NCBI GenBank assembly: GCA_032881465.1 | Contig: CP126168.1 | Location: 1,674,001-1,738,000 of the forward strand | Length of the DNA stretch: 64,000 bases | Direction: 5' to 3' | From: Parvibaculaceae bacterium PLY_AMNH_Bact1 | Lineage (GTDB): Bacteria; Pseudomonadota; Alphaproteobacteria; Parvibaculales; Parvibaculaceae | Shown here: piece by piece, positions 44,124-56,285 of the stretch | Numbering within the stretch: position 1 is the first letter of the stretch | Layout: every line of letters begins with the position of its first letter | Made by a program: the position numbers and the translations under genes | Notes under the pieces: model-generated | What the model saw: only the letters and a program-made list of their open reading frames with translations | The model's database searches: none | Told to the model about the DNA's origin: nothing

Positions 44124-44591
44124 ATGGCTCTCGTCTCTATGACAGTCAACGGCAAACCAGTATCGGGTGAAGTCGAAGGCCGCACTCTATTGGTCCAATT
44201 CATACGTGAAAACCTCAGCCTCACCGGCACACATGTCGGTTGCGACACAAGCCAATGCGGTGCCTGTGTCATCCACATGGATGGCAAAGCGGTGAAGGCT
44301 TGTACGATGCTCGCACTGCAAGCGGAAGGCAGCACCATCACAACCATTGAAGGGTTGGCAAAGGGTGATGATCTCCACCCCGTCCAAAAGGCATTCAAAG
44401 AAAACCATGGGCTCCAGTGTGGTTTCTGCACACCGGGCATGATCATGACGGCTGTTGATATGATCGACCGGATTCCAAACCTGGATGAGAAAACAGTCCG
44501 CGCGGAACTTGAAGGTAATATCTGCCGCTGTACCGGCTACCAAAACATTGTGAAATCTATTCTGGACGCTGCTGAAACCGCACACGCCTGA
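44124..44591 (+). CDS. coxS: Molybdenum hydroxylase small subunit, [2Fe-2S] protein
   Basis: 155 residues; GGGAGG before the ATG. Plant-type cluster [21 protein letters not shown] and the second cluster [10 protein letters not shown]...CRCTGYQNI, the usual two [2Fe-2S] sites of the xanthine-oxidase family. Passes electrons from the molybdenum centre to FAD. First gene of the coxSLMDE run. Confidence 0.95.
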
Positions 44592-44617
44592 CAATCAAGA
44601 TCTCCGGGGAGGAGTTC

Positions 44618-46978
44618 ATGAGCACAACAGGAATTGGACAAGCCATCCGCCGTAAGGAAGACAAACGGTTCATCACAGGTGCCGGTCGATATACCGACGA
44701 TCTGAACCGCCCCGGCCAAACCTATGCCTACTTTCTGCGAAGCCCTCATGCACATGCCAAAATCAATGGCATTGATCTGACAGAGGCAGTTGCGGCACCC
44801 GGTGTCGTGAGTATTTTCACTGGGTCTGACGTGGCTGCCGATGGCCTCGGTGGACTGATCTGCGGCTGGACCGTCCATTCAAAAGACGGCACTGAAATGA
44901 AGGCGGGAGCGCATCCGATCCTGGCCGAAGACACAGTGCGGTATGTGGGCGATCACGTTGCCATGGTTGTGGCAGAAACCTACAGCCAAGCAAAATCAGC
45001 CGCGGAACTTATCGCAGTCGACTATGATATTCTGGATGCTGCAGCCGACGTCGGCACGGCACAAGACGGGTCCGCACCACAGGTCCACGTCGAAGCACCT
45101 AACAATACGAGCTTCGACTGGGAGCTTGGGAACAAGCCGGAAACAGAGGCAGCTTTTGAAAAAGCTGCACACATTGTCAAACTGGACATCACCAACAACC
45201 GGCTGATCCCCAATGCCATGGAACCCCGCGCGGCCCTTGCGGACTACGATAGCGGCACCGATGAATACACGCTTTGGACGACAAGCCAGAACCCCCATGT
45301 CGCACGTCTCGTGCTATCCGCCTTTGTTGGGGTGGCGCCAGAACACAAATTGCGGGTCATTGCGCCCGACGTGGGTGGCGGTTTTGGATCCAAGATTTTT
45401 ATCTACGCAGAAGAAACCGCGTGCGCCTGGGCATCTGCCAAGATCAAACGTCCTATCAAGTGGACAGCGGAACGCAGCGAGTCCTTTTTGTCAGACGCTC
45501 ATGGACGAGATCATGTAAGCCACGCCGAACTGGCCGTCGCCGACGACGGCACCTTTCTGGGACTACGTGTCCAAACCAAAGCCAATCTGGGAGCCTACCT
45601 GTCGACATTCGCATCCTCCGTCCCAACATATCTCTATGGCACTCTGCTTTCGGGGCAGTACGCCCTGCCCGCCGTCTATGTTGAAGTGGACGGTGTCTTT
45701 ACCCACACCGCCCCCGTAGACGCCTACCGTGGAGCTGGACGCCCTGAAGCAACTTATTTGATTGAACGGATCGTTGAGACTGCAGCGCGTGAGTTGGGTT
45801 TCGATCCAGCCGACCTCCGTCGCAAGAATTTCATTCGCACATTCCCGCATCAAACGCCCGTCATTATGAACTATGACATTGGTGATTACGACGCATGTCT
45901 CGACAAAGCACTGGCGCTGATCGACTATGATACCTTTTCCGCCCGGAAAGCAGACGCAGAGAGCCGAGGCAAAAAGCGGGGCATTGGCTTTTCTACCTAT
46001 ATTGAAGCTTGTGGCCTCGCTCCCTCCGCCGCCGTGGGCTCCCTCGGCGCAGGCGTCGGGCTTTGGGAAAGCGCTGAGGTACAGGTTGCACCGACAGGCA
46101 AGATCGAAGTCTTTACCGGCGCGCACAGCCACGGCCAGGGCCATGAAACAACCTTCGCCCAGCTTGTCTGCGAACGGATCGGCGTCCCCATTGAAGATGT
46201 CGAAATCGTTCATGGAGACACAGGCCGCGTGCAATTCGGCATGGGGACCTATGGGTCGAGATCCGGCTCCGTCGGCATGAGCGCATTGGCAAATGCGCTC
46301 GACAAGATTGAAGCGAAAGCCAAAAAGATTGCCGCACACCTGATGGAAGCAGATGCAGGTGACATAGAGCTAAAAGATGGTGTCTTTACCGTTGCCGGAA
46401 CCGACAAAGAGCTCGCCTGGGCAGAACTCGCGCTTGGCGCCTATACCGCACACGGGTTCCCCACAGCTGAGATAGAACCGGGTCTGAAGGAAAACGCATT
46501 CTACGACCCGCTGAATTTCACCTTCCCGTCCGGCTGTCATATCTGCGAAGTCGAAATTGATCCAGATACGGGCGTGACGCAGATCGCCAATTTTGTCGCC
46601 GTGGATGATTTTGGCGTGATCGTGAATCCAATGATTGTGGAAGGTCAGGTTCAGGGCGGCATCGCCCAGGGCATCGGACAGGCGCTCTTTGAAGCCGCCC
46701 ACTATGATGAAACGGGCCAGCTGATAACCGGCTCATTCATGGACTATTGCATGCCACGCGCCGATGACCTGCCCGACTTCAATTTGGGCTTTACCCAAAC
46801 AGATTGTCCCTCAAACCCCATGGGAATGAAGGGCTGTGGCGAGGCCGGTGCAATCGCATCCCCCCCCGCCGTTATCAACGCCATCACAGACGCCCTGGGC
46901 GTCAGAGAAATTGAAATGCCAGCAACCCCCGCACGTGTGTGGGCGGCACTCGCCGCGCCAACACTCGCCGCTGATTGA
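44618..46978 (+). CDS. coxL: Molybdenum hydroxylase large subunit, Form II CoxL-like
   Basis: 786 residues. The active-site loop is AYRGAGR at 369-375; true (Form I) CO dehydrogenases have AYxCSFR there. Catalytic Glu at 742 in [14 protein letters not shown]. Binds molybdopterin cytosine dinucleotide. Form II enzymes oxidise mostly unidentified substrates, such as aldehydes or N-heterocycles, and their CO activity is disputed. Cytoplasmic or membrane-attached via CoxG. Maturation factors follow. Confidence 0.93.
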
Positions 46979-46987
46979 GGAACGCCC

Positions 46988-47785
46988 ATGTATCAGTTTG
47001 ACTATCATCGCGCCGAGAGCGTCGCAGAAGCCGCAGAGCTTCTCTCCGCAAACGACGAAAACACACTGCTCGCGGGGGGACAAACCTTGATCCCGACGCT
47101 TAAGCAGCGCCTGGCCATGCCAGCAACGCTGGTCGATATAGGCAACATCGCCGACCTTAACTTCATCAAAGCCGAAGGGGATGCGATCACCATTGGTGCC
47201 GCCACCAAACATGCAGACGTCGCCTCCTCTCCAGAGGTCGCCAAGCATCTTCCTTCCCTCGCTCACTTGGCAGCCCATATAGGTGATCCGGCGGTGCGCA
47301 ATCGCGGTACCATTGGCGGATCGCTCGCAAACAATGACCCCGCCGCAGACTATCCAGCGGCCGCTCTCGGCCTTGACGCGAAAATCCACACCAACAAGCG
47401 CCTCATCGATGCTGATCCCTATTTCACGGGCATGTTCGAAACCGCCTTGGAAGAAGATGAGATTATTACAGAGGTCACCTTTCCCCATCCGGAGAAAGCC
47501 GCTTACGTCAAATTCCCCAACCCAGCGTCCCGCTATGCCATGGTGGGCGTATTCGTCGCCAAAACGGCCATCGATATTCGGGTCGCTGTGACGGGTGCCG
47601 GCGCAGACGGTGTCTTCCGTATGAAAGAAATGGAAGACGCACTCGGCAGCAACTGGTCGCCCGACGCTGTTACGGGGATCAAGGTGCCAGAGGACGGTCT
47701 TCTCTCTGACCTCCATGGTGCCGCCGATTATCGCAGCCACCTTATCTCTGTGATGGCGGGACGTGCCGTCGCAGCCACCATGTGA
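46988..47785 (+). CDS. coxM: Molybdenum hydroxylase medium subunit, FAD protein
   Basis: 265 residues. FAD-binding motifs AGGQTLIPTLKQRLA and TIGGSLANNDPAADYPAA match CoxM/CutM. Collects electrons from CoxS and passes them to quinone or another acceptor. Starts 9 bases after coxL. Confidence 0.95.
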   Translation: MYQFDYHRAESVAEAAELLSANDENTLLAGGQTLIPTLKQRLAMPATLVDIGNIADLNFIKAEGDAITIGAATKHADVASSPEVAKHLPSLAHLAAHIGDPAVRNRGTIGGSLANNDPAADYPAAALGLDAKIHTNKRLIDADPYFTGMFETALEEDEIITEVTFPHPEKAAYVKFPNPASRYAMVGVFVAKTAIDIRVAVTGAGADGVFRMKEMEDALGSNWSPDAVTGIKVPEDGLLSDLHGAADYRSHLISVMAGRAVAATM

Positions 47786-47816
47786 CCTGCCTCACCAATC
47801 GCGATAGTCTGAACAT

Positions 47817-48725
47817 ATGACCATTTCTCTTCCTGGCTCAATCGATGAGACAGCGGCTCTGCTGTCGAGTGGTGCCTATGTGGCAGACCGATCCCTCGCG
47901 ACGGTCCTCTTTCTGGCACTTAAAATGGGGCGTCCGCTATTCCTGGAAGGCGAAGCTGGCGTCGGCAAGACAGAGATCGCAAAGGTGCTCGCAAGTGCAC
48001 TCGGTCGGAAGCTCATCCGCCTGCAATGCTATGAGGGTCTCGACACCGCTGCGGCGGTCTATGAATGGAACTATCAGGCGCAGATGATTGAGATCCGCCT
48101 GGCCGAAGCGCAAGGTGTTGAAGACCGAGGCGCGCTCGCAAAAGACGTGTTTGATGACCGGTTTCTGATCCGGCGTCCCCTCTTACAGGCGCTACAGCCA
48201 GACGTGAACGGCCCACCGGTGCTGCTCATCGATGAACTCGACAGAACCGACGAACCGTTCGAAGCATACCTGCTGGAGGTACTCTCAGATTTCCAGATCA
48301 CCATTCCGGAAATCGGAACCATCAAAGCAGCAGAACCGCCAATCGTGATCGTAACGTCCAATCGCACCCGCGAGATCCACGATGCACTGAAGCGCCGCTG
48401 CCTCTACCATTGGGTCGACTATCCAGACGCGGAAAGAGAGCTGGAGATTGTGCGCCTGAAAGCACCCGATGCTGCCGACGACCTGTCTCAGCAAATTGTC
48501 GCTTTTGTTCAGGCCTTGCGTGAGCGTGATCTCTATAAGCAGCCCGGCATTGCCGAAACGCTTGATTGGGCGAATGCGCTAACCCAGCTAAATGCCGTCT
48601 CACTGAGCGAGAGCAATATCAATGACACGCTTGGCACTCTTCTCAAGTATCAGGATGACATCGCCCAGGTACGCGGGTCCGACGCCGCACAAATTCTGGA
48701 TGAACTGAAAACCGCGGCCGAATGA
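47817..48725 (+). CDS. coxD: MoxR-type AAA+ ATPase
   Basis: 302 residues. Walker A EGEAGVGKTEIAK, Walker B VLLIDELDRTD, sensor region VTSNRTREIHDALKRRCLYHW. CoxD is needed for active-site assembly (sulfur or copper insertion) of CO dehydrogenase; here it likely serves the Form II enzyme. Its stop overlaps coxE by 4 bases. Confidence 0.93.
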   Translation: MTISLPGSIDETAALLSSGAYVADRSLATVLFLALKMGRPLFLEGEAGVGKTEIAKVLASALGRKLIRLQCYEGLDTAAAVYEWNYQAQMIEIRLAEAQGVEDRGALAKDVFDDRFLIRRPLLQALQPDVNGPPVLLIDELDRTDEPFEAYLLEVLSDFQITIPEIGTIKAAEPPIVIVTSNRTREIHDALKRRCLYHWVDYPDAERELEIVRLKAPDAADDLSQQIVAFVQALRERDLYKQPGIAETLDWANALTQLNAVSLSESNINDTLGTLLKYQDDIAQVRGSDAAQILDELKTAAE

Positions 48726-49903
48726 CAGACAGCCCGGGCCACATTGCCGAGAATATTGCACATTTCGCACGTGTGCTCCGTCGCGCTGGCGTGCCAGTCG
48801 GACCCCGTCAGGTGATTGATGCCATTGAGGCGGTACAGATGGCAGGCATCACATCAGAGAGTGATCTCTACTGGGCCCTTCACACGACGCTGATCCATAG
48901 CCAAGACATGCGGGACATATTCAATCAGGCATTCCATGTTTTTTGGCGCGATCCCAGAATGCTCGAGCGCATGATGGCGATGATGCTTCCAGAACTCGCA
49001 ACCCTACCAGAGGAACCAGAAGAGCGAACGAGCCGCAGGCTCGCAGAAGCATTGCTCAGTCAAGAATCCACGCCACTCCAGGACCCAGAACCAGACATCG
49101 AAATTGATGCCAGGGAAACCATGTCGGCCGCAGAGATCCTGCGTACAAAGGACTTCGAACAGATGAGCGCCGCTGAAATTGCTGACGCGCGGAAAGCCCT
49201 CTCACAGCTGCACCTGCGCCATGACAGTGTCCTCACCCGCAGGACACGTCCCTCCTCAAGCGGCGCACTTATTGACATGCGTTCGTCCCTGCGCGCCTCG
49301 CTGCGAGGTGGTGACATAATTCCACTTAAGCGACGCGAACGCAGGCACCGTCCGCCACCGCTTGTTGTCCTCTGCGATATTTCCGGTTCCATGAGTGTCT
49401 ATGCCAGAACATTTCTTCACTTCCTCCACGCCCTCACCAATGACAGAGACCGAGTCCACACATTCTTGTTTGGCACACGTCTAACTCATGTTTCACGCCA
49501 ACTTCGCCACAAAGACATCGACGAAGCCCTGTCTGCTGTTTCGAACACCGTCGAAGACTGGGATGGAGGGACGCGTGTCGGCGAAACACTCAGACGTTTT
49601 AATGTGGATTGGGCGCGAAGGGTACTGGGCCAGGGAGCGACGGTACTCCTCGTCACAGACGGTCTGGACAGAGACGGTGCCGAGGGCCTGGAGCCTGAAA
49701 TCGCCCGCCTTCATCGCGCCAGCCGCAGGTTAATATGGCTTAATCCGCTACTCCGCTATGATGCATTTGAACCCAAAGCCCTTGGTATCCGAACCATGCT
49801 ACCCCATGTGGATGAATTCAGACCCGTCCACAACCTGGCGTCTCTGCAACACCTTGTGGCATCCTTGAGTGCCCCCAATCGAATCTGGCCGACAGCAGCA
49901 TGA
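48722..49903 (+). CDS. coxE: VWA-domain maturation protein
   Basis: 393 residues. VWA domain with MIDAS DISGSMSVYART and the later DGLDRDGAEG loop. Partner of the MoxR ATPase CoxD, with which VWA proteins commonly work in metal-cofactor insertion. Overlaps coxD and the next gene by 4 bases each. Confidence 0.92.
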   Translation: MTDSPGHIAENIAHFARVLRRAGVPVGPRQVIDAIEAVQMAGITSESDLYWALHTTLIHSQDMRDIFNQAFHVFWRDPRMLERMMAMMLPELATLPEEPEERTSRRLAEALLSQESTPLQDPEPDIEIDARETMSAAEILRTKDFEQMSAAEIADARKALSQLHLRHDSVLTRRTRPSSSGALIDMRSSLRASLRGGDIIPLKRRERRHRPPPLVVLCDISGSMSVYARTFLHFLHALTNDRDRVHTFLFGTRLTHVSRQLRHKDIDEALSAVSNTVEDWDGGTRVGETLRRFNVDWARRVLGQGATVLLVTDGLDRDGAEGLEPEIARLHRASRRLIWLNPLLRYDAFEPKALGIRTMLPHVDEFRPVHNLASLQHLVASLSAPNRIWPTAA

Positions 49904-50259
49904 CCGATAGGACAACACATTTAGACACCATGATGCTCGCAGACGATAACGTGCTGGCACAAGCAGCAGCCTGGGTGGATGCAGGATGTAAAGTGGCAAT
50001 TGCCACCGTCATCGAAACTTGGGGCTCTGCACCACGTCCTGTCGGCAGTCAACTTGCCGTTCGTGAGGACTCTACCTTCGTAGGCTCCGTATCTGGCGGA
50101 TGCATTGAAGGCGACGTCGTCACACGGGCCTTGGACGCCATTCAAAATGAAACATCCGAAGTTCTGGAATATGGAGTCGCCGACGCCATGGCGTGGGAGG
50201 TGGGGCTTGCATGCGGCGGTAAGATAAAAATCTATCTCGAACCACTCACGGGCACCTGA
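49900..50259 (+). CDS. XdhC/CoxI N-terminal domain protein
   Basis: 119 residues. Matches the N-terminal half of XdhC (TVIETWGSAPRPVGSQLAV and GSVSGGCIEGDVV). XdhC binds molybdenum cofactor and promotes its insertion and sulfuration. The C-terminal Rossmann half is encoded separately next door; the split is intact on both sides (clean start and stop), so it is not an obvious frameshift. Confidence 0.9.
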   Translation: MTDRTTHLDTMMLADDNVLAQAAAWVDAGCKVAIATVIETWGSAPRPVGSQLAVREDSTFVGSVSGGCIEGDVVTRALDAIQNETSEVLEYGVADAMAWEVGLACGGKIKIYLEPLTGT

Positions 50260-50262
50260 GGC

Positions 50263-50952
50263 ATGAAGCAGGAAACCCTGAAGCATATATTGAGCGCCCA
50301 GGCTGCGAAACAACCCATCGTGCTGGCATCAAACCTTGAGACGAATGAACAGCTGACACTCGCACCAACTACGAAAGGTCAGCCAGACTGGATGATCGCA
50401 GCCGTCGAAACGGCCGTTAGATCCGACAAGAGCCGCGTTATAGAAGCCCCAGATGGATCGGTCTGGTTTTTCAATGTCTTCAACCCATCCCTCCGCCTCA
50501 TCATCGTCGGTGCCGTTCATATCGCGCAACCGCTTGCGCGCATGGGGCTGGAGGCCAGTTATGATGTGAGCGTTGTTGACCCGAGAGAAGCCTTCGCCTC
50601 CGCCGACCGATTTCCGAATGTTACGTTGGTCAGCGAATGGCCCGATAAGGCGCTTCAAAACCTAGAGTTGGATGCTCGGACCGCTGTCGTGACCCTCACG
50701 CACGACCCAAAATTGGATGACCCTGCCCTTCATGTCGCGTTGAAATCGACCGCTTTCTACATCGGTGCCCTTGGCAGCAAGAAGACGCAAGCGGCACGGC
50801 AACAACGCCTTACGGACACGGGCTTTGCCGAAACAGAAATCGCTCGCATCTGTGGACCAGTCGGCCTCAACATTGGCGCCAAAAGTCCAGCTGAAATCGC
50901 CATATCTATCCTTGCTGAAATAACGCTGACACTTCGCCAGGAGCGTTCATGA
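50263..50952 (+). CDS. XdhC Rossmann-domain protein
   Basis: 229 residues. RLIIVGAVHIAQPLARMGLEASYDVSVVDPRE is the Rossmann motif of the XdhC C-terminal domain (usual GAGHIA reads GAVHIA), and CGPVGLNIGAKSPAEIAISILAEI is its signature. Works with the preceding 119-residue protein. Overlaps the fusion gene downstream by 4 bases. Confidence 0.9.
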   Translation: MKQETLKHILSAQAAKQPIVLASNLETNEQLTLAPTTKGQPDWMIAAVETAVRSDKSRVIEAPDGSVWFFNVFNPSLRLIIVGAVHIAQPLARMGLEASYDVSVVDPREAFASADRFPNVTLVSEWPDKALQNLELDARTAVVTLTHDPKLDDPALHVALKSTAFYIGALGSKKTQAARQQRLTDTGFAETEIARICGPVGLNIGAKSPAEIAISILAEITLTLRQERS

Positions 50953-52568
50953 AATTCGGCTCCTTATCCGTGGCAAAGGCAGAAGGCGTGGTGCTCGCGC
51001 ATTCTGTGCGTGCTGGCGACAAGACCCTGAAAAAGGGTCTTGTTCTGAGCGGTGAAGACATTGAAACGCTCTCAAGCGCAGGCATCGCAACGATCTACGC
51101 GGCTGAGTTGGAACCAGACGACATACCAGAAGACGAAGCAGCCGCGACGATTGCAGCCGCACTCACGGGCCCCCACACGCGCACGGACATAGCCTTCACA
51201 GGACGCGCCAATCTCTATGCAACCGCGTCAGGTGTCCTCTGTCTGAATGAAGCGACCATCAACGAAATCAATAGCCTGGATGAATCCATCACGGTCGCAA
51301 CACTCGCAAATTTCGAGGCGGCAGCCGAAGGGCAAATGTTGGCTACTGTAAAAATCATTCCCTATGCCGCACCAAAGAAACTGGTCGATCAGGCAGTCAC
51401 TTTGGCGTCTGATACTTCGCCCGCGCTGGAGCTGCAGCCTTTTAAGTTCAAAAGAGCGGCTCTCATCCTCACAAGCGTCGATGGGACCAAACAGTCTGTT
51501 CTGACCAAATCAGAAACCGTTATCCGGTCAAGACTTGAGAGCCTCGGTGTTACGTTGGACAACGTGCAGACGTGCCAACATAACGAAACATCACTTATGG
51601 CTACGCTTCAAGAGGTGCCGACCAACGTTGAGATGATCCTGGTCCTTGGTGCATCAGCAACCGGTGACCGGCACGATGTCGTTCCAGCGTCCATCAAAAA
51701 ATCCGGGGGGGTAGTCAAATATTTTGGCATGCCGGTTGATCCAGGAAATCTGTTGCTCCTGGCTGAGCTGAACAATAGGCCCGTGATTGGGCTCCCCGGC
51801 TGCGCAAGGTCCCCCAAACTAAATGGCGCCGATTGGGTGTTGCAGCGCCTGGTTGCCGGACTGAGAGTGGAACCTCGAGATATTCAATCGATGGGCGTCG
51901 GAGGTCTGTTGAAAGAAATTCCTTCCCGACCACAACCCCGCGATGCCAAACACGCCAAGGAACACTCACCTCGTGTCGCAGCAATCATTCTTGGCGGTGG
52001 CCGCTCCACCCGTATGGGACCAACCAATAAACTCACAAGCAGCTTTGAGGGCAAACCGTTGATTGCCCATGTAGCCGATGCCGCTCTGGCATCAAACGCC
52101 GATGGTATCATCCTTGTGACAGGCCATGAAAAAGATGAGGTGCTGAAAGCCCTTGCAGGTCGGCCCATGTCATATGCTCACAACCCCGATTATGCGGACG
52201 GATTGAGCACCTCCATCAAAGCGGGCATCAAAGCGGCCACAGAGCTTGACCCGCCGGTAGACGCGGCAGTGATCCTCCTCGGTGATATGCCGCTTATCAA
52301 CGCAGATCTCATCAACCGCTTGATCGTTGAGCACGCTCCTGCAGACGATAAGTTCATTTGCGTCCCCGTCGTAGGCAAAAAGCGAGGGAACCCCGTTTTG
52401 TGGGACGCCTCCTTCTTCAACGACCTTCTCAACTTAAGTGGAGACGTTGGGGCAAAGGCACTGATGGCACAGAATGCAGACCTTGTGTCCGAGGTACCCT
52501 TCGACGACGATGCTCCCCTCACTGATTTCGATACACCCGAGGCGTTGCGGCAACATCGAGCTGATTAG
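50949..52568 (+). CDS. Molybdopterin-binding / MocA-like cytidylyltransferase fusion
   Basis: 539 residues. Residues about 1-330 resemble a molybdopterin-binding domain (MoCF-biosynthesis/MoeA-MogA type, with GLPGCARSPKLNGADWV). Residues from about 343 are a MocA-like nucleotidyltransferase: AAIILGGGRSTRMGPTNKL. NKL after RMGxx is the CTP-using MocA pattern (GTP-using MobA has DKxL), which fits a CoxL-type enzyme needing molybdopterin cytosine dinucleotide. One protein may thus bind molybdopterin and attach CMP. Shares a 4-base convergent overlap with the GH13 gene. Confidence 0.87.
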   Translation: MKFGSLSVAKAEGVVLAHSVRAGDKTLKKGLVLSGEDIETLSSAGIATIYAAELEPDDIPEDEAAATIAAALTGPHTRTDIAFTGRANLYATASGVLCLNEATINEINSLDESITVATLANFEAAAEGQMLATVKIIPYAAPKKLVDQAVTLASDTSPALELQPFKFKRAALILTSVDGTKQSVLTKSETVIRSRLESLGVTLDNVQTCQHNETSLMATLQEVPTNVEMILVLGASATGDRHDVVPASIKKSGGVVKYFGMPVDPGNLLLLAELNNRPVIGLPGCARSPKLNGADWVLQRLVAGLRVEPRDIQSMGVGGLLKEIPSRPQPRDAKHAKEHSPRVAAIILGGGRSTRMGPTNKLTSSFEGKPLIAHVADAALASNADGIILVTGHEKDEVLKALAGRPMSYAHNPDYADGLSTSIKAGIKAATELDPPVDAAVILLGDMPLINADLINRLIVEHAPADDKFICVPVVGKKRGNPVLWDASFFNDLLNLSGDVGAKALMAQNADLVSEVPFDDDAPLTDFDTPEALRQHRAD

Positions 52569-54202
52569 GACCCACTGAAAAAAGCCGCGCTTCGAGGACC
52601 ACAAATAACTTCTGCTCCGACAATCGACGCATCGCCCGTTCCAAAATCCAGTCTATCGGCACCCTTCAAAACGATTTCTGAGGCCGCACTGCCATGCCAG
52701 ACAGAAGCTTCGTCACTTGCGTTGAAGACACAAGTCAGTCTTTCATCCCCAAACTCGCGCCGAAATGCCAGAATGGGCCCACTGCTCTCAAGAAACGTAA
52801 TGTCACCAGTCGATAGACAAGCGTGTTCCTTCCGGAAGCGGATGGCCTCTCGCGCGAACTTCAAGACCGTATCATTCATAGCTTCCTGAATATCAACAGC
52901 TCGCTCTGAGTGTGCCTCCGGGATTGGCAGCCAGGGGTCTCCACTGCTGAACGCTGCATTAGGCGCACGACCGATCCATGGCATAGGTGTCCTGCATCCA
53001 TCACGGCCCTTGCCGAAGGGAAAATAGAGATCGCCCACTGGGTCCTGAATCCTGTCGCGATCTATGTCGACATCAGGAAGTCCAAGCTCCTCTCCTTGAT
53101 AGAGAAGCACGGTTCCTCTAAGCGCCAAAAGAAGCGCCAATCCGAACTTAGCCAAAGCATCATCGCCAGCTCTTCCCCCACCCCATCTTGTCACCGGGCG
53201 CGTGAGATCATGATTGGAGAAAGTCACACAAGGCCAGGGATCGCCGTTCTTCTTCAGCGTCTCCTGGTAGTAGTTCTGAAAGACCTCAGGTGCGAGAGAT
53301 CTGTCTTCCAGAAAATCAAATGTATACGCCGTATGCAGCAGATCAGGTTCCCCAACATAGGCCCCGATCATTTCCGGTGTCTCAGCAAATTCCCCAAAAG
53401 CGAGCCGGTCCTCATATTCGTCAAGAACCGACCGCACAGCCCGCATGGCAATCTGGTTTTCAGACAAACCGCTGTCATGCACATGTTGCTGGAGCCGCGG
53501 AGCATGAGACCAATTCAGACTGGTCCGTTCGTCCAGTGGGACGGCCGGGTTATCAGCGAGCGTGGCGTCATGGTAGTAGGCATGTGCCACATCCAACCGG
53601 AACCCATCCACGCCGCGCTCCAGCCAGAAGCGCAAAACATTCATCAGGGCTTTTACCGCTTCTGGTTCATGGAAGTTCAGTTTCGGCTGCTGACGCAGAA
53701 ATTTGTGGTGGTAATACTGCCGCCGCACTGGGTGCCATGACCAGGCAGGCCCGCCAAAAGCCGACATCCAATTGTTGGGCGGCGTGCCATCTTCTTTGGC
53801 ATCTGCCCAGACGTACCAGTTAGCCCTGTCACTCTCCCGAGAAAGAAGGCTCTCCTGAAACCATTCATGCTGGTCAGAGCTGTGAGCAAGCACCTGGTCC
53901 AGTATGAGTTTCATCCCCCGTTCGTGGGTCGCCTCCAACAGAGCGTCAAACCCGTCGAGCGTGCCCATCTCGGGCGCGATATTGCAATAGTCTGCAACGT
54001 CATAGCCAAAATCTTTGTTCGGGCTTGGATAGATAGGAGACAGCCAAATAGCATCAACACCAAGAGACGCCACATAATCCAGCTTTCGCTTGATACCTTC
54101 CAGATCGCCGACGCCTGAGCCGGTCGTATCCGCATAGCTCCTTGGGTAAATCTGATAGACAATCGCCCCTTTCCACCAAGGCGTCTTCGCTGAACCACTC
54201 AT
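52565..54202 (-). CDS. GH13 alpha-glucosidase/oligo-1,6-glucosidase-like enzyme
   Basis: 545 residues from 54202 (AGGGG 6 bases upstream; the ATG at 54208 lacks spacing). TIM-barrel marks: VYQIYPRSYADTTGSGVGDLEGI, DGFRLDVAHAYYHD with the nucleophile Asp, AFGEFAET with the acid/base Glu, TFSNHDLTR with the third Asp. No signal peptide, so intracellular cleavage of alpha-1,4 or 1,6-linked glucosides, sucrose or trehalose-type sugars. Exact linkage cannot be read. Divergent from the halohydrin dehalogenase gene. Confidence 0.9.
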   Translation of the reverse strand: MSGSAKTPWWKGAIVYQIYPRSYADTTGSGVGDLEGIKRKLDYVASLGVDAIWLSPIYPSPNKDFGYDVADYCNIAPEMGTLDGFDALLEATHERGMKLILDQVLAHSSDQHEWFQESLLSRESDRANWYVWADAKEDGTPPNNWMSAFGGPAWSWHPVRRQYYHHKFLRQQPKLNFHEPEAVKALMNVLRFWLERGVDGFRLDVAHAYYHDATLADNPAVPLDERTSLNWSHAPRLQQHVHDSGLSENQIAMRAVRSVLDEYEDRLAFGEFAETPEMIGAYVGEPDLLHTAYTFDFLEDRSLAPEVFQNYYQETLKKNGDPWPCVTFSNHDLTRPVTRWGGGRAGDDALAKFGLALLLALRGTVLLYQGEELGLPDVDIDRDRIQDPVGDLYFPFGKGRDGCRTPMPWIGRAPNAAFSSGDPWLPIPEAHSERAVDIQEAMNDTVLKFAREAIRFRKEHACLSTGDITFLESSGPILAFRREFGDERLTCVFNASDEASVWHGSAASEIVLKGADRLDFGTGDASIVGAEVICGPRSAAFFSGS

Positions 54203-54281
54203 CCACATCCCCTAATACATCGCGTTCTACACGCGTAAATGCTACATGAGGATGCAGCACATGAACATGTTGGAGAGAGCT

Positions 54282-55028
54282 ATGAGCGAGCTAACAGGCA
54301 CGATTGTTCTAATCACGGATATTGAACATTTCATCGGACGGCCTGCAGCAAAGGCGCTTATTGAAGCCGGTGCCACGGTCTACGGAACCGACCACGCTTT
54401 TTCAGACAAGGCCGCCTGCAAAGCTGCGGAACAAGCACTACCCGGGCTCAAGGCTGTCGGTGGCGCAGACCCCGTCGTCGCCGCGGGGCGAGTATTGGAG
54501 GAAACTGGGCGCATTGACCTCCTGGTTAATAACGATGCCTTCCCAGCATTGCGGGCGTCGCTGGACACGGCGAAAGATGAAGATCTTGAAGCAACGTATA
54601 ATGCTCTTGTCTTCAAACCCTTCCGTGTTAGCCGCGCTGTCGTCCCATCCATGAAGTCATCAGGCGGCGGAAAAGTACTGTTCCTCACCTCAGCAGCGCC
54701 ACTCAACGGCCTCGCTAACTACTCCATGTATGCCTCTGCGCGGGGAGCGGCCAATTCACTCGTTCTGTCTCTCGCTCGTGAACTCGCCCCGAAAAACATT
54801 CAGGTCAACGCACTAGCACCAAACTATGTGGAGAGTGCGGATTACTTTCCGCCTGCGCTGATGGAGAATGAAGACACCAAGGCCAAGATCCTGAAAAACA
54901 TTCCACTCGGTCGATTGGGGAAACCCGAAGAAGCCGCCGCCCTCATCACCTTTCTCGCAGGGCCTCTATCTGGTTTCATCACTGGCCAGGTCATTCCCTT
55001 TGCAGGTGGCTGGGCGAACGCGCGGTAA
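54282..55028 (+). CDS. Halohydrin dehalogenase (SDR-derived)
   Basis: 248 residues from the ATG at 54282 with GGAGAGAG upstream. SDR fold, but the NAD-binding TGxxxGxG is replaced by TDIEHFIG (T12, F17, G19: the T-x4-F-x-G of halohydrin dehalogenases) and the catalytic residues are S137, Y150 and R154, giving S-x12-Y-x3-R instead of S-Y-K. The halide-pocket segment is APNYV. Length and block pattern match HheC-type enzymes. These split vicinal haloalcohols to epoxides, and open epoxides with azide, cyanide or nitrite. It is not a normal NAD(P)-dependent SDR. Confidence 0.9.
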   Translation: MSELTGTIVLITDIEHFIGRPAAKALIEAGATVYGTDHAFSDKAACKAAEQALPGLKAVGGADPVVAAGRVLEETGRIDLLVNNDAFPALRASLDTAKDEDLEATYNALVFKPFRVSRAVVPSMKSSGGGKVLFLTSAAPLNGLANYSMYASARGAANSLVLSLARELAPKNIQVNALAPNYVESADYFPPALMENEDTKAKILKNIPLGRLGKPEEAAALITFLAGPLSGFITGQVIPFAGGWANAR

Positions 55029-55036
55029 GCTGGAAC

Positions 55037-55777
55037 TCAATTGAGCTGAACAATCGGCGCCAAAGTCGGCCCAATCTCTTCGTGCACCACAAGGTCCGCA
55101 AGCCCATCCAGCTCTGTTTCCTCGCGATTCAAAATTACCAGCTTCGCGCCGTTCTTTTTCGCCATGATCGGGAAACCTGCAGCGGGATAGACTTGCAATG
55201 ACGAGCCAATCGCGATGAAGAGATCACACTCTAAAGTCGCCTCTGTCGCCCGCTCCATTTCTGCTTCCGGCATTGCCTGTCCGAAGGAGATCGTCGCAGA
55301 CTTCAGGATGCCACTGCAAAACTGGCAATCCTGTGGCTTACCATTCTCCTCATAGTGAGACCGGATTTCCGCCAGCTCATACCGCGCACCGCAATTCAGG
55401 CACGTGGCATAAGTACTGTTCCCGTGGAGCTCAATCACCTTGTCCGTCGGCACCCCTGAGTTCTGGTGAAGGTTATCGACATTTTGGGTAATGACGTGAG
55501 TGACCTTGCCTGTGTCCACCAGCTTGGCGACCGCCATATGACCCTTGTTGGGCTCAGCTGCCGCGAAGCTCCCGTCCATCGCGAATTTGCGCCGCCACGC
55601 CTCAACCCGCATCTCTTCAGAAGCCATAAAGTCCCGAAAATCAATCGGGGCCATTTTGGTCCACAGACCACCGGGACTGCGAAAATCAGGAATGCCGGAT
55701 TCTGTGCTGATCCCCGCTCCTGTGAAGACAACGGCCCGGCGACTGCTCTCGATAAGCGCCTTCAGTTCCCCCGACAT
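55037..55777 (-). CDS. cobB: Sir2-family NAD-dependent protein deacylase
   Basis: 246 residues. GAGISTESGIPDFRSPGGLW (NAD binding), TQNVDNLHQNSG, catalytic His in IELHGN, and zinc Cys pairs CLNCG and CQFCSG. Removes acetyl or other acyl groups from protein lysines. The Tyr/Arg pair of desuccinylating sirtuins is not obvious in VEAWRRKFAM (Glu where Tyr would be), so deacetylase activity is favoured. Convergent with the halohydrin dehalogenase, 8 bases apart. Confidence 0.93.
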   Translation of the reverse strand: MSGELKALIESSRRAVVFTGAGISTESGIPDFRSPGGLWTKMAPIDFRDFMASEEMRVEAWRRKFAMDGSFAAAEPNKGHMAVAKLVDTGKVTHVITQNVDNLHQNSGVPTDKVIELHGNSTYATCLNCGARYELAEIRSHYEENGKPQDCQFCSGILKSATISFGQAMPEAEMERATEATLECDLFIAIGSSLQVYPAAGFPIMAKKNGAKLVILNREETELDGLADLVVHEEIGPTLAPIVQLN

Positions 55778-55865
55778 ATTTCACTCCCCACAGTTCTCTT
55801 TGACCTTCTGGCCTGTTCCGGAAATGATACGCAAAACGAACCCCAGAAGGATAGGCAAACCACGC

Positions 55866-56285
55866 ATGCGATACTTGCACACCATGGTCCGCGTGACCGA
55901 TCTTGACGCGTCTCTAGAGTTCTACTGCACCCATTTGGGCCTAAAAAACGTCGGTCGATTTGACGTAGAAGAAGGCCGTTTTACCCTCGTCTTCCTGGCC
56001 CCAGAAGGCCAGGAGGAGGCGCAGATTGAGCTGACCTATAATTGGGACCCAGAAGAGCTCGATGAGGGCCGGAACTTCGGTCATCTTGCCTACCGCGTCG
56101 ATAACATTTACGCGACTTGCCAGAAACTAGCCGACGCGGGAATCACCATCAACCGACCACCCCGTGACGGCCGAATGGCATTTGTCCGCTCTCCAGACAA
56201 CATTTCCATTGAACTTCTCCAGGAAGGCCAGCCCCTCCCTGCTCAGGAGCCTTGGGCATCCATGGAGAATAACGGCCACTGGTAG
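55866..56285 (+). CDS. gloA: Glyoxalase I (lactoylglutathione lyase)
   Basis: 139 residues from the ATG at 55866. Metal ligands in the E. coli GloA pattern: His5 in MRYLHTMVRV, Glu in QIELTYN, His in GHLAYRV and Glu in ISIELLQ. FYCTHLGLKNVGRFD is the VOC core. Converts the methylglyoxal-glutathione adduct to lactoylglutathione. The frame is open upstream through the divergent sirtuin gene, but the native start is clearly at 55866. Confidence 0.92.
   Translation: MRYLHTMVRVTDLDASLEFYCTHLGLKNVGRFDVEEGRFTLVFLAPEGQEEAQIELTYNWDPEELDEGRNFGHLAYRVDNIYATCQKLADAGITINRPPRDGRMAFVRSPDNISIELLQEGQPLPAQEPWASMENNGHW

Follow-up and report, generated by a model that had tools for sequence, protein, structure and literature searches.

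A probable A-type halohydrin dehalogenase gene and its kept setting in the family around Parvibaculum

Halohydrin dehalogenases (HHDHs) are wanted as biocatalysts. The stretch of 64,000 nucleotides analysed here (the window), from Parvibaculaceae bacterium PLY_AMNH_Bact1, holds a gene that a sequence-only reading had taken for an HHDH hidden among SDR-like sequences. Is it one, of which subtype, and what might it do in nature? With a probability of about 0.93, the gene encodes a cofactor-independent HHDH of the A type, the catalysis being assigned by homology. This is a known kind of enzyme, soundly identified; beyond that, its interest lies in a kept and apparently ancestral setting, and the keeping of an HHDH at one genomic place hints at an unfamiliar natural job.

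The gene and its two signatures

The open reading frame at 54282-55028 on the plus strand translates into 248 residues and a stop, and its coordinates, strand, frame and length had thus been read correctly from the letters. In-frame ATG codons occur upstream of 54282, one at 54246 and others in the sequence. The likely start codon is nonetheless the ATG at 54282; a Shine-Dalgarno-like GGAG precedes it, and an ATG stands at the equivalent position in all four genus relatives inspected. The features of the gene are as follows.

54272-54275, plus strand: GGAG, Shine-Dalgarno-like, six bases 5' of the ATG at 54282 (read from the sequence)
54282-55028, plus strand: predicted halohydrin dehalogenase gene, A-type (ORF translation, motifs, structure-database sequence search, tree)
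54315-54338, plus strand: signature 1, T12-x4-F17-x-G19 (TDIEHFIG; translation, motif search)
54528-54536, plus strand: N83-N84-D85 (NND; translation)
54690-54743, plus strand: signature 2, catalytic S137-x12-Y150-x3-R154 (SAAPLNGLANYSMYASAR; translation, motif search)
54816-54830, plus strand: APNYV loop, A179-P180-N181-Y182-V183 (translation)

Translation and motif search place T12, F17 and G19 as well as S137, Y150 and R154 at the very numbers first ascribed to them, and bear out the APNYV segment. T12, G19, S137, Y150 and R154 are invariant in 11 aligned sequences, the window protein included, and F17 gives way to W in three of the 11. By homology with HheC, the APNYV loop (179-183) would line the halide site. 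Pattern searches of the protein found neither form of the Gly-rich dinucleotide loop (T-G/A-x3-G/A-x-G or G-x3-G-x-G), nor the SDR pattern S-x10-14-Y-x3-K; where SDRs carry NNAG, the window protein has NND (83-85).

Both signatures at suitable spacing occur once among all window ORFs of at least 80 residues. The genome, 3,741,076 bases in one contig, yields 39 SDR-like matches to the protein at E <= 1e-3; all 39 were examined, and the signature pair is found in the window gene only. The other 38 comprise 28 with both the Gly-rich loop and S-Y-K, 35 with at least one of these and three with neither as judged by the search patterns; one of the 38 (L102) matches the signature 2 pattern by chance and has Gly-rich loop and S-Y-K. 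Across the family, both signatures are present in 26 of 28 matches, the remaining two being incomplete sequences. PMC4989007 reports confirmed activity for a selection of 19 proteins identified by this two-motif rule, and the present case shows the published rule working on raw sequence.

Relatives, tree position and subtype

A PDB sequence search put 6a41 on top (7e-65), with HheC and HheA chains (1.2e-36 to 1.2e-34), HheD2 (7b73, 2.1e-34) and 8xxb (2.9e-31) behind it, the last carrying an SDR label but belonging to the HheB/HheD kind. The first plain reductase was 7krk (7e-27); 7wkq, its chain named halohydrin dehalogenase and taken by us for a G-like HHDH, came in at 5.4e-25. The Pfam matches of the window protein are to SDR models only, and the best 25 of 201 NCBIfam matches are all SDR models as well, each under its own cut-off. 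On the strength of those 25, model-based naming would call the protein an SDR, which makes it plausible that such enzymes are often misannotated, as had been asserted; some HHDHs do bear the right name in public records, L048 being an example.

Fold comparison was tried as a means of telling HHDHs from SDRs and rejected. The AlphaFold model (mean pLDDT 79.1, pTM 0.81) is weak at residues 138-145 and 208-210 and at the C terminus, and pLDDT under 50 in the two internal stretches is too low for pocket geometry to be judged. Foldseek ranked 6a41 first, HheA (4z9f) second and a FabG third; VIA-align gave its best Z to 6a41 (28.5) with a FabG nearly level (27.3, second), and HheC and HheA (26.6 to 25.9) tied with many reductases. 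Since the fold is common to HHDHs and SDRs, it proves nothing by itself for the window protein.

FabG and other SDRs have the fold and the catalytic Ser and Tyr in common with the window protein, but they carry a Gly-rich NAD(P) loop and a Lys, both of which it is without. HheB (4zd6) and HheD2 (7b73) are halohydrin dehalogenases with S-Y-R, as in the window protein. HheA2 (1zmo) and HheC (1pwx) bear both signatures at about 34% identity, on long branches in the A/C-like part of the tree, HheC chains having 254 residues and matching only to 243. The 6a41 protein (a 'Dehalogenation enzyme' in the PDB) is 46% identical by Foldseek, matches at full length with both signatures, and belongs to another branch of the A/C-like part, together with f66 genomes.

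A further relative is L027, from genome G012 and a genus other than that of the window: it is 62% identical to the window protein, lies at the same locus, and alone among 16 SDR-like G012 matches at E <= 1e-14 has both motifs. We infer that L027 is probably HheA3 (HHDH-PL) of Parvibaculum lavamentivorans DS-1, which PMC4989007 gives as a characterised HHDH; a near relative of the window protein has thus probably been assayed.

Two trees were built, a quick one of 95 rows and a careful one of 78 (65 HHDH-like and 13 SDRs), for which 17 near-identical or long-branch rows of the former were dropped. The outgroup offered was 20 of the 38 SDRs of the genome itself and two from other loci, 13 of which are in the careful tree. 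Neither tree was given the fragments L169 and L175, nor eight of the 28 family matches (L029, L030, L033, L034, L040, L042, L045 and L047). In the careful tree the 65 HHDH-like rows, among them the window protein, HheA2, HheC, HheB, HheD2 and 6a41, are split from the 13 SDRs at 100/100, types E, F and G being outside the tree; the quick tree likewise separates HHDH-like rows from ordinary SDRs (SH-aLRT 100). The window protein did not, then, group with NAD-dependent SDRs in the phylogenetic check that had been proposed. Sequence search, motif census and the probably assayed relative all agree and support the HHDH reading first proposed, as does the tree.

Within the careful tree, HheB and HheD2 form a separate clade with four other rows (100/100), and the window protein falls in the A/C-like part (96/82) with 6a41, HheA2 and HheC. 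Its subtype had been said to be beyond telling by eye; from this position, within the A/C-like part and away from B and D in a tree without types E, F and G, it can be named as A with fair confidence. Of the 17 rows in its clade (94/98), its own family supplies 15 and family f121 two. The genus of the window makes a clade of its own at 100/100, and the branch joining it to the g4 group of L027 is weak (89/20). The protein of G011 (L036) groups with the two f121 rows at 99/93; the history of the 17-row clade is therefore not purely vertical, and transfer between lineages occurs.

An AU test on the quick tree, with the SDRs and the clade of the window's genus held together, did not reject that arrangement (p 0.789), whose tree outscored the quick one by 21.66 log units. 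As the same arrangement also arises with the SDR root on the genus-clade branch, the result is read as one about the root and not about membership: the quick tree is not the best, and the root inside the HHDHs is unsure. As a membership test, run on the quick tree only, it was rejected as badly posed because of the root.

Locus, distribution and selection

The neighbours of the gene in the window are listed here.

52565-54208, minus strand: alpha-amylase-family (GH13) enzyme, divergent neighbour (Pfam PF00128, 3.6e-109; conserved neighbour)
55037-55777, minus strand: Sir2-family protein, convergent neighbour (Pfam PF02146, 7.5e-46; conserved neighbour)
55866-56285, plus strand: glyoxalase-family protein, next along, start read as MRYLHTMV (Pfam PF00903, 1.4e-19 on the longer ORF 55545-56285; conserved neighbour)

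Divergent from GH13 and convergent with Sir2, the HHDH gene stands alone, and an operon reading was rejected on this ground. A Pfam scan of 14 window neighbours revealed no mobile-element protein among them, nor any neighbour that hints at a substrate. A molybdenum hydroxylase cluster occupies 44124-52568, parts of it conserved beside the HHDH locus; it includes a 2Fe-2S protein, a MoCo-binding large subunit, an AAA ATPase, a CoxE-like VWA protein, XdhC/CoxI pieces and a fused protein with an NTP-transferase domain.

The locus was compared over 17 regions (the window and L049-L064). In 14 of these the HHDH survived automatic ORF calling; it was left out in L050, L054 and L064, L050 nonetheless holding the protein. 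GH13 directly adjoins the HHDH in divergent orientation in 11 of the 14 (all save L057, L058 and L061; in L058 one ORF separates the two genes), and in 10 the other flank has a Sir2 or glyoxalase gene within three ORFs (all save L056, L057, L058 and L062). The HHDH thus occupies one shared place in four genera, g1 and three others. In G011 the ORFs between HHDH and Sir2 (L058:8703-11062) look like a restriction-modification or repair island, presumably a DNA methyltransferase and a repair endonuclease; an island beside the gene and the grouping with f121 suggest a possible exchange between lineages.

Matches at E <= 1e-30 are found in 27 of the 40 family genomes, an order-level search covering the same 40. 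The gene of the window itself (at least 55% identity over the matched part) is present in 24 of them: 7/7 in g1, 0/2 in g2, 1/2 in g3, 14/27 in g4 and 2/2 in g5. Among the 24, the match in G016 begins only at residue 132, and G034 has the gene as two pieces on two contigs; of the family genomes that gave no match, several are incomplete. Class-wide, the count of genomes with a match at E <= 1e-33 is 46 of 385. The 45 class matches outside the family divide into 32 with both signatures in full, three with Trp for Phe/Tyr in signature 1 and 10 that depart otherwise or are incomplete; adding five inside the family, both signatures occur in 37 matches across the 385 class genomes, about one genome in ten. 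Such enzymes had been called rare, a description that these counts of matching genomes and full signatures do not bear out.

The gene is missing from 13 of the 27 g4 genomes, seven of which have GH13 and Sir2 on one contig. In six, the gap between the aligned ends of the two genes holds no HHDH match and measures about 11 (G035), 47 (G030), 227 (G017), 235 (G023), 585 (G013) or 1320 (G036) bases; in G020, three short HHDH remnants lie between GH13 and Sir2. The locus is apparently ancestral, with what would be more than one loss in g4. Shared locus, empty sites and remnant make up a comparative set for asking what an HHDH does in nature.

Where it could be measured, against G006, dN/dS (Nei-Gojobori) is 0.020 for the HHDH gene, 0.024 for Sir2 and 0.045 for GH13, values that are rough because dS is near 1; in several more distant pairs dS is beyond estimation. 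In this pair the HHDH gene is under strong purifying selection.

Three g4 genomes without the gene of the window hold a second HHDH clade (L043, L044 and L046), 36-39% identical, with both signatures and CTGG in place of NND; in two of them GH13 and Sir2 adjoin without an HHDH. That the two genes exclude each other was considered and set aside, the second being present in 3 of the 13 g4 genomes without the first and in 0 of the 14 that have it, which is too few.

Proposed chemistry, natural role and variant proteins

The roles proposed for the residues derive from the chemistry of HheC, as PMC4989007 and PMC11976700 present it; there, signature 1 walls the nucleophile pocket and replaces the Gly-rich loop that binds NAD. 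On the model of the homologues HheC and HheA, Ser137 and Tyr150 would hold the hydroxyl of a vicinal haloalcohol, Arg154 would lower the pKa of Tyr150, and Tyr150 would act as the base that takes the proton. The alkoxide would displace the neighbouring halide and the epoxide close, the halide departing to a pocket that the T12/F17/G19 loop would form with the loop around 179-190, at the position of the NAD(P) site of an SDR. In reverse, epoxides could be opened with halide, azide, cyanide or nitrite. The natural substrate is guessed to be a haloalcohol or epoxide met in the habitat, and the product epoxide might, again as a guess, be handed on to epoxide hydrolases whose genes lie elsewhere. 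Far from the HHDH gene, the genome codes for two EHN-type epoxide hydrolases and one LEH-type protein; in the family, EHN occurs in 39 of 40 genomes and LEH in 33 of 40, with or without an HHDH. Co-occurrence is uninformative for that reason, and it was rejected as a functional link.

That the protein might after all be an ordinary NAD(P)-dependent SDR with HHDH-like motifs by chance is hardly credible. Its fold is indeed that of an SDR, and both Pfam and the best 25 NCBIfam matches name SDR models only; those matches all fall below their cut-offs, however, the Gly-rich loop and S-Y-K are both wanting, a 100/100 branch of the tree lies between it and the 13 SDRs, and the recurrence of both signatures in nearly all family matches speaks against chance. 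Only slightly less improbable is a recently acquired gene for xenobiotic degradation, like the plasmid-borne HHDH of Microbacterium sp. J1-1. On that plasmid (NZ_CP089591.1; L048:1841-5483) three consecutive genes code for epoxide hydrolase, haloalcohol dehalogenase and glycerol kinase, with an IS1634 transposase about 1.5 kb away, and the grouping of the G011 protein with two f121 proteins indicates that transfer between lineages does occur. Against this stand the same place of the gene in g1 and three other genera, the cohesion of the window's genus at 100/100 and the lack of mobile-element proteins among the 14 scanned neighbours. A plasmid search returned 101 records at E <= 1e-20, none at 60% identity or above; of the 40 matches listed, one is annotated as haloalcohol dehalogenase (H11) and the rest are SDR-type or unannotated.

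The enzyme likely has a natural role and not a xenobiotic one. From the shared locus in four genera and the strong purifying selection where measured comes the reading, to which we give even odds, that this HHDH has long belonged to the family around Parvibaculum, does a natural job unrelated to xenobiotics, and has apparently been lost on more than one occasion within a single genus. The same two observations would also suit an HHDH descendant whose native reaction is other cofactor-free epoxide chemistry, such as the opening or detoxifying of a metabolic epoxide with an anion, dehalogenation being a side reaction. The wide occurrence of EHN-type epoxide hydrolases in the family fits with this, and according to PMC4989007 only two known HHDH genes adjoin an epoxide hydrolase gene and other functions are possible; yet those hydrolases are there irrespective of the HHDH, and no scanned window neighbour points to a substrate. 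We hold this version to be possible, if rather doubtful. The genome paper of Ca. Phaeomarinobacter ectocarpi, searched for six halogen-related or strain terms, contains none of them.

Variant HHDH-like proteins were seen elsewhere. Genomes of family f97, genus g101, have in three cases out of four a head-to-tail pair of HHDH-like genes, always in the same order (L165:5780-7258, L167:4860-6346 and L168:5638-7137). The downstream copy has Tyr in signature 1 and S-Y-R, one example having Ile for Thr; in the upstream copy the aromatic residue is replaced (S, G or P), S-Y-R has become S-Y-Q and the pocket Asn is lost. The two copies are sister clades in the careful tree (100/97), for which the simplest origin is duplication. 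By its residues the pair looks like an inactive and an active subunit, and the upstream copy is guessed to be a catalytically dead partner in a mixed tetramer; among the papers searched, none links 'halohydrin dehalogenase' with 'heterotetrameric'.

Another clade (L014, L015, L016, L017, L146, L148 and L151, of which L015 and L148 are identical proteins) has T-x4-W-x-G with an intact S-Y-R; with Trp for Phe/Tyr in signature 1, it would be missed by the published motif search. Finally, L173, L174 and L176 show T-x4-Y-x-G and keep the Arg, with Pro or Ala at the position of the catalytic Tyr.
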